Part shown: positions 52,814-56,811 of the stretch, in pieces | Layout of the letters: the number at the start of each line of letters is the position of its first letter | How positions within the stretch are numbered: the stretch's first letter is position 1 | Source: Streptomyces sp. ISL-12 | GTDB taxonomy: Bacteria > Actinomycetota > Actinomycetes > Streptomycetales > Streptomycetaceae | Length of the DNA stretch: 64,000 nt | Direction: 5' to 3' | Assembly: GCF_018614415.1 (NCBI RefSeq) | Contig: NZ_JAGGOO010000022.1 | Span: 1-64,000, forward strand | Notes under the pieces: generated by a model | What the model saw: only the letters and a program-made list of their open reading frames with translations | Told to the model about the DNA's origin: nothing | Database searches by the model: none | Program-made: the position numbers and the translations under genes

Positions 52814-52837
52814 TCATGCCCCCGGGCTGGATAGGGT
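52810..52837 (+). promoter_or_regulatory. Possible trpD promoter
   Basis: TTCGTC (52810-52815), 16 bases, TAGGGT (52832-52837). It overlaps the end of the qcrB terminator and would start transcription about 60 bases before trpD. Confidence 0.35.
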
Positions 52838-52902
52838 GGACCCGGTTCCGAACGCGGTTCCGGATCCGGTTCTTTCCGATCTCACTCTCACAGGAGCGGC
52901 AG

Positions 52903-53967
52903 ATGAGCGCTGTGACCCCCGCTGGAGGCGACACCGCGGCGGGCCGCTCCTGGCCCGTCCTGCTGAACGGACTGCTGGGCGGACGGGACCTGTCCGCCGA
53001 CGAGACCGCGTGGGCGATGGACACGATCATGCGCGGCGAGGCGACCGACGCGCAGATCGCCGGGTTCGCGGTGGCGCTGCGGGCCAAGGGCGAGACCGTG
53101 GACGAGATCGGCGGCCTGGTCCGCGCGATGTACGAGCACGCCCATGTGATCCAGGTGCCCGGCGACACGGTCGACATCGTCGGCACCGGCGGCGACGGCG
53201 CCAAGACCGTCAACATCTCCACCATGTCGGCGATCGTCGTCGCCGGCACGGGCGCCAAGGTCGTCAAGCACGGCAGCCGCGCGGCCTCCTCGGCCTCCGG
53301 CGCCTCCGACGTCCTGGAGAAGCTCGGCGTCAATCTGGAGCTGACCCCGAAGCGGGTGGCCGAGGTCGCCGAGGAGGCGGGCATCACCTTCTGCTTCGCG
53401 GTGAAGTTCCACCCCGCGCTGCGCCACGTCGCCGCCGCCCGCGGCCAGCTCGGCATCCGCACGGTCTTCAACTTCCTCGGCCCGCTGACCAACCCGGCCA
53501 AGGTCCGCTCCCAGGCCATCGGCGTCGCCGACGCCCGGATGGCCCCGATCATCGCCGGGGTCTTCGCCGAGCGCGGCAACTCCGCGCTGGTCTTCCGCGG
53601 CGACGACGGGCTGGACGAGCTGACCACGACGGCCACCTCCCGGGTGTGGGTCGTGCGGGACGGCATGGTGACCGAGGAAGTCTTCGACCCGCGCGACGTC
53701 GGCATCGAGATCGTGCCCGTCGAGGCGCTGCGGGGCGCCGACGCCTCCTACAACGCGGACGTGGCCCGCCGGCTGCTGAGCGGCGAGCCGGGCCCCGTAC
53801 GGGACGCGGTGCTGCTCAACTCGGCGGCGGCCCTGGTGGCCCTGGAGCCCGGCGAGGAGCCGCTGACCGACCGCATCCGGGCCGGCATGGCACGCGCCGC
53901 CGAGTCGATCGACTCGGGAGCGGCCCGGCACGCCCTGGAGCGCTGGGTGGCCGCCAGCAACGCCTGA
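52903..53967 (+). CDS. trpD: Anthranilate phosphoribosyltransferase
   Basis: Joins anthranilate to PRPP in tryptophan synthesis. The 354-aa protein has the PRPP-binding [14 protein letters not shown] motif, [18 protein letters not shown], and the [12 protein letters not shown] region of the family. The ATG at 52903 has AGGAG 7 bases upstream; an open extension to 52816 lacks homology. It stands alone: no other trp gene is in the window. A hairpin downstream ends its transcript. Confidence 0.96.
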
Positions 53968-53982
53968 CGGCGCCTGTGACGT

Positions 53983-54016
53983 CCGTCCCGTGATCCGGAC
54001 ACGGGTTGCGGGACGG
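53983..54016 (+). terminator. Candidate trpD terminator
   Basis: Arms 53983-53990 and 54009-54016 (CCGTCCCG / CGGGACGG) with a small inner CCG/CGG pair, 16 bases after the stop. Confidence 0.55.
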
Positions 54017-54042
54017 CGATCACCTCACGTACGTTTTCGAAC

Positions 54043-54160
54043 CAGGTCATGAGTGACAGTCATGAGGCCCCGGCCGACTGTCCGGCAACCCTCCGTCCGT
54101 GGCGGGGTGCCCCGGGTGAAGACCAGGCCGTGGACAGCAAGGTCCACGGCAAGCGCGGAC
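54043..54160 (+). ncRNA. SAM-IV-like riboswitch
   Basis: Core features fit the SAM-I/SAM-IV clan. A closing P1 is formed by GGTC (54045-54048) and GACC (54121-54124). A P2 is GACAGT/ACTGTC with the conserved CCGGCAACCCTCC segment, followed by GGGGTGCCCCGGGTGAAGACC. A P5 hairpin GTGGAC-AGCAAG-GTCCAC (54130-54147) lies outside P1, as in SAM-IV. It would sense S-adenosylmethionine. It precedes a SufS-like gene by 140 bases, linking that gene to sulfur metabolism. The class call is from recognition of the conserved segments. Confidence 0.8.
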
Positions 54161-54180
54161 CCCTCGCGTACCAGGGGTCC
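54157..54180 (+). promoter_or_regulatory. Hairpin after the riboswitch, possible expression platform
   Basis: GGACCCCT (54157-54164) pairs with AGGGGTCC (54173-54180). No T run follows. It lies 10 bases before the Shine-Dalgarno of the mini-ORF, so control could be by translation or by attenuation. Confidence 0.5.
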
Positions 54181-54203
54181 TGGGTCGTCCGAGGGAGTCT
54201 CCC

Positions 54204-54224
54204 GTGAATCAGCGAATGCGCTAG
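54204..54224 (+). CDS. Possible six-codon leader peptide
   Basis: GTG AAT CAG CGA ATG CGC TAG encodes MNQRMR. AGGGAG lies 7 bases before the GTG, a better site than that of the downstream gene. The Shine-Dalgarno can pair with TCCC just before the GTG. It sits between the riboswitch and the SufS-like gene and contains a second Met codon. The call rests on position and ribosome binding site only. Confidence 0.4.
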   Translation: MNQRMR

Positions 54225-54301
54225 GGCCGCCGAGCCCCGCCTCCGCACCCCCCTTTCTTTCTCTTCCTTCGCCTCGCGCGTCGTACTCACGGGAGTCCGC
54301 C

Positions 54302-55663
54302 ATGTCCGTGCCCACTGCTGTCCTCGCCCCGCTGCCCGTCCTCGGCCGGGACGTCACCGTGCCGCTCGTCACCGGCGGCGAGGTCACCTACGCCGCGCTC
54401 GACTACGCCGCCAGCGCCCCCGCGCTCCAGCGGGTCTGGGACGACGTGGCCGCCTACGCGCCGTACTACGGCAGCGTGCACCGGGGCGCCGGGTACCTCT
54501 CCCAGTTGTCCACCGACCTGTTCGAGAACGCCCGGCGGACCGTGCACGACTTCCTCGGCTGCCGGGACGACGACCAGGTGGTGTTCACCCGGTCCACCAC
54601 CGACTCCCTGAACCTGCTGGCCGGGGCGCTGCCCGCCGGCTGCCGGGTCTTCGTCTTCGAGACCGAGCACCACGCCTCGCTGCTGCCCTGGCGCGACGCC
54701 GAGGTCACCTTCCTCGACGCCCCCCGCACCCCCGCGCAGGCCGTCGAGACCCTGGAGCGCGCCCTCGCCGACCGGGAGCCGTACGGCCCCGCCCTGGTCT
54801 GTGTCACCGGCGCCTCCAACGTCACCGGCGAGCTGTGGCCGGTGCGGGAGCTGGCCGCCGCCGCGCACGCGCACGGCGCCCGGATCGTCCTGGACGCCGC
54901 CCAGCTCGCCCCCCACCACCCGGTGAGCGTCCGCGACCTGGACGTCGACTGGGTCGCCTTCTCCGGGCACAAGCTGTACGCCCCCTTCGGCTCGGGCGTG
55001 CTGGCCGGCCGCGCCGACTGGCTGCGCGAGGCCGAGCCGTACCTCGCGGGCGGCGGCGCCAGCCGCAAGGTCGCCCGGCGCGCCGACGGGGGAGTGGACG
55101 TGGAGTGGCACGAGGGCGCCGCCCGGCACGAGGCCGGCTCGCCCAACGTCATCGGCGCCTACGCGATCGCCGCCGCCTGCAAGGCGCTCACCGAGGCCGG
55201 GTTCGAGGCGCTGGTGGCCCGGGAGGAGTACCTGATCGGCAAGGTGCGGGAAGGGCTCGCCGAGGTGCCCGAGGTGCGGGTGCTGTCACTGTTCGGGGAC
55301 GACGCGCCGCGCGTCGGGGTGCTCTCCTTCGTCGTCGACGGCTGGAACAGCTCCCACTTCGCCGCCGCCCTCTCCGCCGAGTACGGCATCGGCGTACGCG
55401 ACGGCCTGTTCTGCGCCCACCCGCTGGTGCGCACCCTGCTCGGCAGCGACCCGGGCGGCCAGGGCGAGTGCGGGGCCCCCGAGGCGGCGCCCGGCGAGAA
55501 GTCCCTCAACGCGGTGCGGGTCAGCTTCGGCGCGGGCACCCCCGACGAGCACGTGGAGCGGTTCGTCACGGCGGTGAAGGAACTGGTGCGGGACGGCGCC
55601 CGCTGGAACTACCGCACCGAGGACGGCCGTTGCGTGCCCGACACCTCCGCCGAGGCCGCGTGA
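54302..55663 (+). CDS. SufS-like class V aminotransferase/cysteine desulfurase-like enzyme
   Basis: A 453-aa PLP enzyme with His124 (ETEHHASLLPW), Asp198 (VLDAAQ), Schiff-base Lys224 (FSGHKLYAPFG) and a SufS-like Cys371 in GVRDGLFCAHPLV. These are the features of a type II cysteine desulfurase, although the Cys loop differs in detail from SufS. A SAM-IV-like riboswitch upstream points to a role in cysteine or methionine metabolism rather than Fe-S assembly. The ATG has CGGGAG upstream. The last 55 bases overlap the glycerate kinase gene on the other strand. Confidence 0.88.
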   Translation: MSVPTAVLAPLPVLGRDVTVPLVTGGEVTYAALDYAASAPALQRVWDDVAAYAPYYGSVHRGAGYLSQLSTDLFENARRTVHDFLGCRDDDQVVFTRSTTDSLNLLAGALPAGCRVFVFETEHHASLLPWRDAEVTFLDAPRTPAQAVETLERALADREPYGPALVCVTGASNVTGELWPVRELAAAAHAHGARIVLDAAQLAPHHPVSVRDLDVDWVAFSGHKLYAPFGSGVLAGRADWLREAEPYLAGGGASRKVARRADGGVDVEWHEGAARHEAGSPNVIGAYAIAAACKALTEAGFEALVAREEYLIGKVREGLAEVPEVRVLSLFGDDAPRVGVLSFVVDGWNSSHFAAALSAEYGIGVRDGLFCAHPLVRTLLGSDPGGQGECGAPEAAPGEKSLNAVRVSFGAGTPDEHVERFVTAVKELVRDGARWNYRTEDGRCVPDTSAEAA

Positions 55664-56811
55664 GCCGGTAGCCGGGCGCCCAGCAGGATCATCCTGAGGG
55701 CCCGTTCGGTCGCGTCGGTGAGGAGTTCCGCGCCCCGGGTCAGCGCCTCCGCCAGGGCCATCGGCGCGGGCAGGATGCCGTGGCAGGCGTCCACCCCCGG
55801 CACGTCGTACGCGCCCTCGCCGAGCGTGCCCGCCAGCGCCAGCACCGGGCGTCCGTGCAGCTTGGCGCGGCGGGCCACCTCCGCCGGGATCTTGCCGCGC
55901 GGCGTCTGGTGGTCGAGGGCGCCCTCGGCGGTGATCACCAGGTCGGCGCGGGCCAGGCGGGCGTCGAGGTCGAGCCGGCCGAGGAGGACGTCGAAGCGGG
56001 GCAGCAGCCGTGCGCCGAGCGCCGCCAGGCCCGCGCCCAGACCGCCGGAGGCACCGGTGCCGGGGCCGGTGCGCAGGTCGAGGCCGGTCGGGTTGAGGTC
56101 GCGGGTGAGGACGTAGGCCCAGTTCTCCAGTCCGGCCGAGAGGTGCTCGACCTGGGCCGGGGTCGCGCCCTTCTGCGGGCCGAAGACGCGGGCCACGCCG
56201 CGTTCGCCGCACAGCACGTTGAACGGGTTGCAGGCGACGAGGAGTTCGGTGTCCTTCAGGCGGGGGTCGAGGCCGGTCGGGTCGACGCGGGCCAGCCGGG
56301 TCAGTTCCCGTCCGCCGGGCGGCAGTTCGAAGCCGTCCGCGTCCAGCAGGCGGGCGCCGAGGGCCTGGAGGGCGCCCGCGCCCCCGTCGGAGGTGCCCGA
56401 GTCGCCGCAGCCGACCAGGACGCGCCGCACCCCGGTGTCCAGCGCGGCGCGGATCAGCTCGCCGACGCCGTACGTGGTGGTGGCGCCGGGGTCGCGCAGG
56501 GTGCGCGGGACCAGGGAGAGACCGGCGACCGCGGCCATCTCCACCACCGCCGTGTCCCGCGTGCCCAGCAGCGCGAAGTGGGTGCCGATCCGCTCGCCGA
56601 GCGGGCCGGTCGCGGCCAGCGCCACCAGCCGTCCACCGGTCCCGGCGGCCAGCGCCACGGCCGTGCCCTCGCCCCCGTCCACCAGCGGCACCCGGTCGAT
56701 CTCCGCGCGGGGCAGCACCCGGCGCACCCCGGCCGCGATGGCGTCGGCGGCTGCCTGGGCGGACAGCGACTCCTTGAAACCGCTGGGGGCGACGACGACT
56801 CGGTTCAGCAT
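55609..56811 (-). CDS. glxK: Glycerate kinase
   Basis: Phosphorylates glycerate, linking glyoxylate or serine breakdown to glycolysis. The 400-aa protein begins VVVAPSGFKESLSAQAAADAI and has DGGEGT, VGCGDSGTSDGGAGALQALG and NPTGLDLRTGPGTGASGGLGAGL, all typical of the GarK/GlxK family. AAGGAG overlaps the stop of the transporter gene 11 bases upstream, so the two form an operon. The C-terminal 18 codons overlap the opposing PLP-enzyme gene. Confidence 0.93.
   Translation of the reverse strand: MLNRVVVAPSGFKESLSAQAAADAIAAGVRRVLPRAEIDRVPLVDGGEGTAVALAAGTGGRLVALAATGPLGERIGTHFALLGTRDTAVVEMAAVAGLSLVPRTLRDPGATTTYGVGELIRAALDTGVRRVLVGCGDSGTSDGGAGALQALGARLLDADGFELPPGGRELTRLARVDPTGLDPRLKDTELLVACNPFNVLCGERGVARVFGPQKGATPAQVEHLSAGLENWAYVLTRDLNPTGLDLRTGPGTGASGGLGAGLAALGARLLPRFDVLLGRLDLDARLARADLVITAEGALDHQTPRGKIPAEVARRAKLHGRPVLALAGTLGEGAYDVPGVDACHGILPAPMALAEALTRGAELLTDATERALRMILLGARLPAHAASAEVSGTQRPSSVR

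Follow-up and report, generated by a model that had tools for sequence, protein, structure and literature searches.

The SAM-IV riboswitch (RF00634) was reportedly described by Weinberg in 2008. Like known members of this class, the leader analyzed here matches the covariance model over its full length and lies upstream of a sulfur gene. Unlike in that class as known, the start site nearest the aptamer on its 3ʹ side belongs not to the enzyme but to a six-codon upstream ORF (uORF).

The closest described leaders are from two other Streptomyces species. The S. lividans gene SLIV_26975 is listed as a SAM-IV-controlled “cysteine desulfurase (thiamine metabolism)” (PMC8079986, Table 3), and in S. 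clavuligerus a premature SAM-IV transcript has been assigned to CRV15_21540 (PMC8269248). In both, as here, SAM-IV stands ahead of a cysteine desulfurase or class V PLP gene. A preliminary description of our locus had suggested that annotation as a generic aminotransferase would hide this link; these published pairings show that it does not. No uORF is named for either leader in the accessible portions of the two papers, and the eight leader peptides tabulated in PMC8079986 (Table 4) are different ones.

Riboswitches linked to uORFs are known from Mycobacterium tuberculosis, namely the pe20 Mbox (PMC12810186) and B12 riboswitches (PMC11260477), according to the sections of those papers available to us. 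In those systems translation of the linked uORF affects the main gene, as we propose here. The present locus differs from them in its ligand and aptamer, in the length of the uORF (six codons), in a likely pairing with the Shine-Dalgarno (SD) sequence of the main gene, and in the gap between the two reading frames, which at 60–292 nt means that there is no stop/start overlap. Our literature search, which took in few subscription papers, found no account of a uORF under SAM-IV or of this particular uORF. Hence, the pairing of SAM-IV with a desulfurase gene is already known, and the uORF under SAM-IV is the new part.

A SAM-IV aptamer ahead of a desulfurase-like gene

The window, by which we mean the whole 64-kb stretch of Streptomyces DNA that was analyzed, contains a single Rfam match over threshold by cmscan. 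This is SAM-IV, at 54045–54161 on the forward strand, with 116.2 bits (E = 8.6e-21) against a gathering threshold of 38 bits. The match spans model positions 1–116 of 116, is not truncated, and is the only copy found across the 8.39-Mb genome. The preliminary description had recognized a SAM-IV-like leader from the letters of the sequence and had proposed a covariance-model search as a check; that search bears it out. The extra hairpin it had described is also present, 3ʹ of P1, in the Rfam alignment, where the paired stems are visible. P1 pairs 54045–54048 with 54121–54124, coordinates that we read from the leader sequence. Directly upstream of the aptamer, a promoter-like TTGCGG-18-TACGTT (54006–54035) can be read by eye, and its TACGTT fits the TAnnnT box as given in the available part of PMC8079986; a sigma-70 promoter scan of the leader gave no match.

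The gene for the enzyme (54302–55663, forward strand; 453 aa) starts at the ATG at 54302, one base past the end of the leader as the preliminary description had drawn it. It is flanked upstream by trpD (52816–53967), and a glycerate kinase gene on the minus strand (55609–56811) converges on it.

The pairing of aptamer and enzyme is not due to chance, since 98 of 101 Streptomyces genomes have SAM-IV. An orthologue of the enzyme was found by tblastn at the fetched locus in 96 of these 98 (lowest score 456 bits), and in the other two (L118 and L122) the downstream ORF looks like an orthologue by eye. In a sample of 296 genomes from the class, full-length orthologues scored at least 236 bits and SufS-like matches about 184 bits or less. 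By the cut that we applied, orthologues occur in 87 genomes outside Streptomyces, two of them as partial matches below 230 bits, and for at least 51 of the 87 SAM-IV lies 45–555 nt upstream on the same strand. The enzyme subfamily carries SAM-IV in many actinobacterial families.

Of 20 regions taken from other families, 17 hold the orthologue cluster, one (L346) came from the wrong contig, and no neighbor of the enzyme gene is common to more than three of the 20 loci; those that share one are relatives. We therefore dropped genome neighbors as a clue to function, and the gene looks like a stand-alone unit of SAM-IV and desulfurase. The best 80 loci in a contig scan (by title, 78 from Streptomyces, one from Kitasatospora, one from Microtetraspora) revealed no distant contexts, and a tblastn search of a plasmid collection returned only matches under 60%.

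A six-codon uORF between the aptamer and the enzyme gene

The uORF reads GTG AAT CAG CGA ATG CGC TAG (MNQRMR*; 54204–54224, forward strand) and has an SD sequence, AGGGAG, at 54192–54197. The pattern occurs once in the window's own genome (8.39 Mb). A loose regular expression (GTGA, 11–14 bases, TAGGGC) found the uORF at 86 of 96 Streptomyces loci. CGAATG, which the expression did not demand, is present in all 86. Within this hexamer (54213–54218 and homologues), codon 4 is always CGA at these loci and never another arginine codon. A wider search, which allowed other start codons and second codons and required CGAATG, gave 93 parsed loci, all with an SD-like motif within 16 nt 5ʹ of the uORF. 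Two unparsed loci (L061 and L072) also carry it. Hence, the feature that marks the Mbox and B12 type of leader, a conserved, SD-bearing short ORF right after the aptamer, is present at 95 of 96 Streptomyces loci. The sole exception, L103, has the same start site fused directly to the enzyme ORF. This locus (G028:C1113), which has lost the uORF and has a perfect 10-bp anti-SD stem at the fused start, is the end of a 4-kb contig from a genome with 4% contamination.

In a second sample, drawn from the family, 69 of 121 genomes match the uORF pattern, with 26 matches among the 28 Streptomyces genomes and 43 among the 93 from other genera; some of the 43 are due to chance. Two Streptomyces genomes gave no match: G257 has a copy that starts with TTG (MSKRMS*), and G371 has neither the enzyme gene nor SAM-IV. 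G371 is 100% complete and has MetM; it gave neither an orthologue of the desulfurase nor a SAM-IV match. Among 30 fetched loci from other genera that match the pattern, 22 have SAM-IV upstream, an SD sequence and the orthologue downstream, and the remaining eight look like chance matches.

We followed up 12 family genomes that the uORF pattern had missed. In a sister genus (g127), all nine leaders have SAM-IV and the orthologue and no CGAATG uORF, with the SD and ATG of the enzyme itself some 45–60 nt past the aptamer. No uORF was found in genome G390 (g115), where the enzyme starts directly, from TTG. In a further genus of the family (g118, genome G393), locus L368 has a different, three-codon ORF, GTG ATG GCG TGA, between SAM-IV and the desulfurase. 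The CGAATG uORF is found in none of 11 outgroup desulfurase leaders; the first SD-bearing start is the enzyme's own in eight of them, and a short, unconserved ORF comes first in the other three. We therefore reject the uORF as a family-wide trait. From its absence in all nine g127 leaders and all 11 outgroup leaders we conclude that it belongs to Streptomyces and some allied genera.

Where the uORF is absent, the enzyme's own start takes its place next to the aptamer (9/9 in g127, 8/11 in the outgroups). In Streptomyces, the enzyme start lies 60–292 nt beyond the uORF (77 nt here). The switch probably addresses the uORF first, an argument that is based on position, with a ribosome site next to the aptamer, more than on folding. 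The preliminary description had the SAM leader controlling the enzyme. The aptamer does lie upstream, but the conserved uORF comes before the enzyme start, and the enzyme is therefore probably controlled indirectly. The sister genus, with the same aptamer and enzyme and no uORF, makes the two designs directly comparable.

A possible two-step relay from SAM to the enzyme

How might the uORF pass on the state of the aptamer? We propose a two-step RNA relay that represses the desulfurase in response to SAM, and we consider the evidence for this proposal to be about evenly balanced. At high SAM, the aptamer would fold and its pseudoknot would free CCCCUCG, which would then mask the SD sequence of the uORF, the first start site past the aptamer. 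As long as ribosomes are kept off the uORF, the uORF's start region, CUCCCGUGA (54199–54207, forward strand), would pair with the ribosome site of the enzyme, UCACGGGAG (54287–54295), and the enzyme would not be made; the untranslated, C-rich leader may also allow an early stop to transcription. At low SAM, ribosomes would initiate on the uORF, occupy the CUCCCGUGA strand and release the enzyme's site. The response of the leader to SAM is a prediction.

The second step is suggested by complementarity. The uORF start region is a perfect 9-bp complement of the segment that holds the enzyme's SD sequence (9/9 pairs, −22.4 kcal/mol). Across the 93 loci, this duplex has a mean z of −1.68 against shuffles, with 64 loci below −1. 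It is stronger than the mean of other leader windows at 89 of the 93 loci, but stronger than the best other window at only 45. Averaged over the loci, own pairs do better than every one of 2000 permutations, yet singly they beat the cross-species mean at only 53 of 93 loci. In the fixed register 0.78 of positions are paired, compared with 0.50–0.60 when the register is slid. At position −1 there is an exchange of C-G for U-A, and eight of nine main-side A's face a U (Fisher 8e-5, relatedness ignored). All of these statistics are inflated by relatedness among the loci, and pairing is weak in some clades (−12.5 in L003). Together, they make the relay helix suggestive.

For the first step, the minimum free energy (MFE) fold of the window's own leader contains a candidate OFF hairpin (54160–54197), in which the anti-SD CCCCUCG (54160–54166) pairs with CGAGGG (54190–54195) around an inner stem, CCAGG/CCUGG (54171–54175/54179–54183). 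The 3ʹ strand of P1, GACCAGG (54121–54127), can pair with CCUGG(G)UC at 54179–54186, a putative ligand-free alternative, and a second such pairing is possible between GGACCCCU and AGGGGUCC. Of six free-state folds displayed, only that of L007 has both alternative pairings, and the window's own fold is without the P1 pairing. The anti-SD masks the uORF SD in the own MFE fold, and neither accessibility nor covariation adds support. Mean SD accessibility by partition function is alike in the bound-like state (0.26) and the free state (0.25 and 0.28; n = 92), and between-species covariation of anti-SD and SD does not rise above permutation, 436 of 2000 permutations doing as well. A thermodynamic switch is not supported, since SD accessibility fails to separate the states. 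We reject termination-reinitiation as the main mechanism because the uORF stop, 60–292 nt from the main start, is too distant.

A simpler account, which we consider appreciably less probable than the relay, is that of a plain SAM-IV OFF switch in which the translated short-ORF leader acts mainly on transcription: SAM would bar ribosomes, and Rho or a hairpin at the uORF stop codon would end the transcript in the C-rich leader. Premature termination is the main competitor of the relay, or its companion, because S. clavuligerus has a described premature transcript at a SAM-IV leader whose downstream gene is of the class V PLP type (PMC8269248). The same proposal has been made for the M. tuberculosis Mbox (PMC12810186). 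The base composition agrees with this account: in the 60 nt past the uORF, C makes up 47% and G 23%, compared with 42% and 32% in the gene. There is also a short hairpin at 54223–54237 whose 5ʹ arm, AGGGC, overlaps the uORF stop; it folds at 92 of 93 loci, but this is only a modest enrichment over shuffles (mean 70/93, maximum 78). No intrinsic terminator was matched in the leader. Moreover, a six-codon uORF shields little RNA, and action on transcription leaves the complementarity between the uORF start and the main SD unexplained.

Should the two-step relay prove correct, translation would add a second layer to a riboswitch class that is already known, one invisible to a reporter joined directly to the aptamer, and a gene of six codons that Streptomyces and certain allied genera have retained would have gone unnoticed.

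A desulfurase-like enzyme distinct from the suf-operon SufS

The enzyme belongs to Aminotran_5 (Pfam, 1.3e-73) and has, by homology, the catalytic PLP lysine K224 (SGHK) and the SufS-type cysteine C371 (RDGLFCAH). H123, H124, D198, Q201, K224, C371 and R406 are invariant among 20 orthologues with 49–93% identity to it. SGHKxY is found in 96/96 Streptomyces orthologues and RDGxFCAH in 95/96; the remaining one reads RSGMFCAQ, so that the catalytic cysteine is kept in all 96. An AlphaFold2 model (pLDDT 86.5) has a C-terminal tail and a low-confidence loop at 387–393. The 50 Foldseek matches shown for this model are all cysteine desulfurases or selenocysteine lyases, and the top ten VIA matches have Z of 40.9–42.1 and rmsd of 2.0–2.3 over 369–390 residues.

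The best-scoring NCBIfam model is nonetheless one that the enzyme fails: it reaches 246.1 bits on SufS (TIGR01979), against a cut-off of 475.1. The SufS of the genome's own suf operon passes with 616.9 bits, which argues that the enzyme is not the Suf-operon SufS. The two are 33.5% identical, and there are four further homologues of the enzyme within the genome. SufS and the enzyme have the fold, the PLP lysine and the catalytic cysteine loop in common; they differ in that the enzyme stands alone under SAM-IV, with unconserved neighbors. Hence, the part of the preliminary description that called the protein a SufS-like class V PLP enzyme with a catalytic cysteine stands, and by the curated model it is not SufS itself. 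Fold and active site point to a desulfurase-like enzyme in a subfamily of its own, and we predict cysteine desulfurase activity on that basis.

Could the substrate be another one? The enzyme might be a class V C-S lyase or an aminotransferase rather than a cysteine desulfurase. The low identity to the genome's SufS is in keeping with this, as are scores below the cut-off of all 18 NCBIfam models matched and the tail and loop of the model. Against it stand the predicted SufS fold, the catalytic cysteine, lysine, histidine pair and Arg406, which are invariant in the 20 orthologues, and retention of the cysteine throughout Streptomyces. We judge a different substrate to be unlikely.

A probable role in supplying sulfur for homocysteine

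A role in methionine and cysteine supply, as suggested in the preliminary description, is the natural reading of a SAM-IV leader. We think that the enzyme probably mobilizes the sulfur of cysteine for homocysteine, and repression by SAM fits such a role. The desulfurase would strip cysteine of its sulfur, hold it as a persulfide on the enzyme itself and most likely pass it on to the synthesis of homocysteine; in Streptomyces, the sulfur may travel through the MetO/MetM sulfur-carrier route, a putative acceptor. Hasebe is said to have reported this methionine route of Streptomyces in 2024.

As cited in the passages of PMC12172450 available, the MetM/MetO route of Streptomyces was described only in 2024, and metM of S. 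albulus has a SAM riboswitch in the same arrangement as seen in the window's own genome. There, at L037:3-1764, SAM-I (78.6 bits) is followed by a threonine-synthase-like (MetM-like) gene, a gene for a ThiS-family carrier ending in GG, and a groEL-like ORF. Thus, in this genome too a SAM riboswitch stands on MetM-like and carrier genes. No desulfurase for MetO is named in those passages of PMC12172450, and the link to the enzyme described here is ours. Since a carrier-based route needs a sulfur donor, a SAM-controlled desulfurase is an obvious candidate.

Among 268 genomes, 68 have both the orthologue and MetM, 19 the orthologue only, 97 MetM only and 84 neither (odds ratio 3.1, phylogeny not corrected); the corresponding search for MetO cannot separate it from CysO. 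MetM is absent from 19 of the 87 non-Streptomyces genomes with an orthologue, and a role of the enzyme as an obligate, dedicated donor to MetO is not supported on these grounds. In other actinobacteria, SAM-IV also lies ahead of O-acetylhomoserine sulfhydrylase genes, five of five tested passing TIGR01326. A broader reading fits both the MetM route and the sulfhydrylase genes, namely that the enzyme would donate cysteine sulfur for homocysteine made by whichever enzyme is at hand. In Streptomyces, the desulfurase that provides the sulfur of methionine may be this enzyme, a candidate open to testing.

Coding character of the uORF

We compared 115 copies of the uORF (37 distinct), with CGAATG and TAG partly fixed by the search pattern. 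The length is always six codons, and the start is ATG or GTG; the copy in G257, with TTG, is the one further start seen. The second codon varies freely, the third is AAG or CAG in most copies, and the sixth is usually CGN, with every base represented at its third position. Pairs of copies that differ by a single step are synonymous in 19 cases and non-synonymous in 25, compared with 10 and 32 among possible sense changes. The commonest peptide is MSKRMR (78 of 115 copies). That the uORF is coding is well supported, and its translation in cells is what these signs would lead one to expect.

Another explanation is that the uORF is a codon sensor, in which ribosomes would stall at CGA and at the single internal AUG under a shortage of Arg-tRNA or Met-tRNA; tRNA shortage would then be a second input beside SAM. 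This account, which strikes us as improbable, takes its support from CGA-ATG at all 86 loci found without demanding it and from short ORFs with Cys, Met and Arg codons that follow SAM-IV ahead of metY in other actinobacteria. However, most copies have one internal Met codon and the commonest form has no Cys. The account also presumes that CGA is a rare codon in this genome.

Least probable, by a small margin, is an untranslated short ORF whose conserved stretch is an RNA element or protein site: GCGAATG is kept beyond coding need (though later searches demanded CGAATG) and the 25 non-synonymous pairs would agree with it, but the start is limited to ATG, GTG or TTG, every parsed locus has an SD sequence, synonymous pairs are in excess (19/44 against 10/42 possible) and L103 fuses the start site to the enzyme ORF.

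Short ORFs at other SAM-IV leaders

It is tempting to generalize from these leaders. Actinobacterial SAM-IV may often be a uORF switch in which the aptamer masks the ribosome site that comes first, and at several sulfur genes this site would be that of a short peptide gene, with MSKRMR* ahead of the desulfurase in Streptomyces, Cys/Met peptides ahead of metY and a TRRLHIDLLRVSSAY peptide ahead of a GST-like gene, such that SAM and the behavior of the ribosome are read together, and the desulfurase would be the dedicated sulfur donor for carrier-dependent homocysteine synthesis. We offer this wider scheme tentatively and would not be surprised to see it fail.

In other actinobacteria, SAM-IV leaders of MetY-like genes have short ORFs with Cys, Met and Arg codons in 8 of 12 parsed cases (L200, L202, L204, L206, L207, L212, L213 and L221; L224 was not parsed), MetY identity being established by model in five loci and by eye in the rest. 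The peptides include MTCRMRR, MCIRRMCCR and MARSPMRCCCQ, and four of the eight ORFs contain CGAATG, as does the Streptomyces uORF.

Streptomyces genomes also have extra SAM-IV copies. In five of these (L116, L134, L136, L138 and L139), a TRRLHIDLLRVSSAY leader peptide is followed by a GST-like gene; two of these genes were tested, and one clears a Pfam GST cut-off, the other falling just short. Other extra copies stand ahead of genes for a luciferase-like monooxygenase (L111), for an ABC permease (L117) and for a binding protein of family 5 (L124), and short ORFs of the VDLLRVSSALC- or HVDLLLVCSCLC-type are found at L117 and L132.
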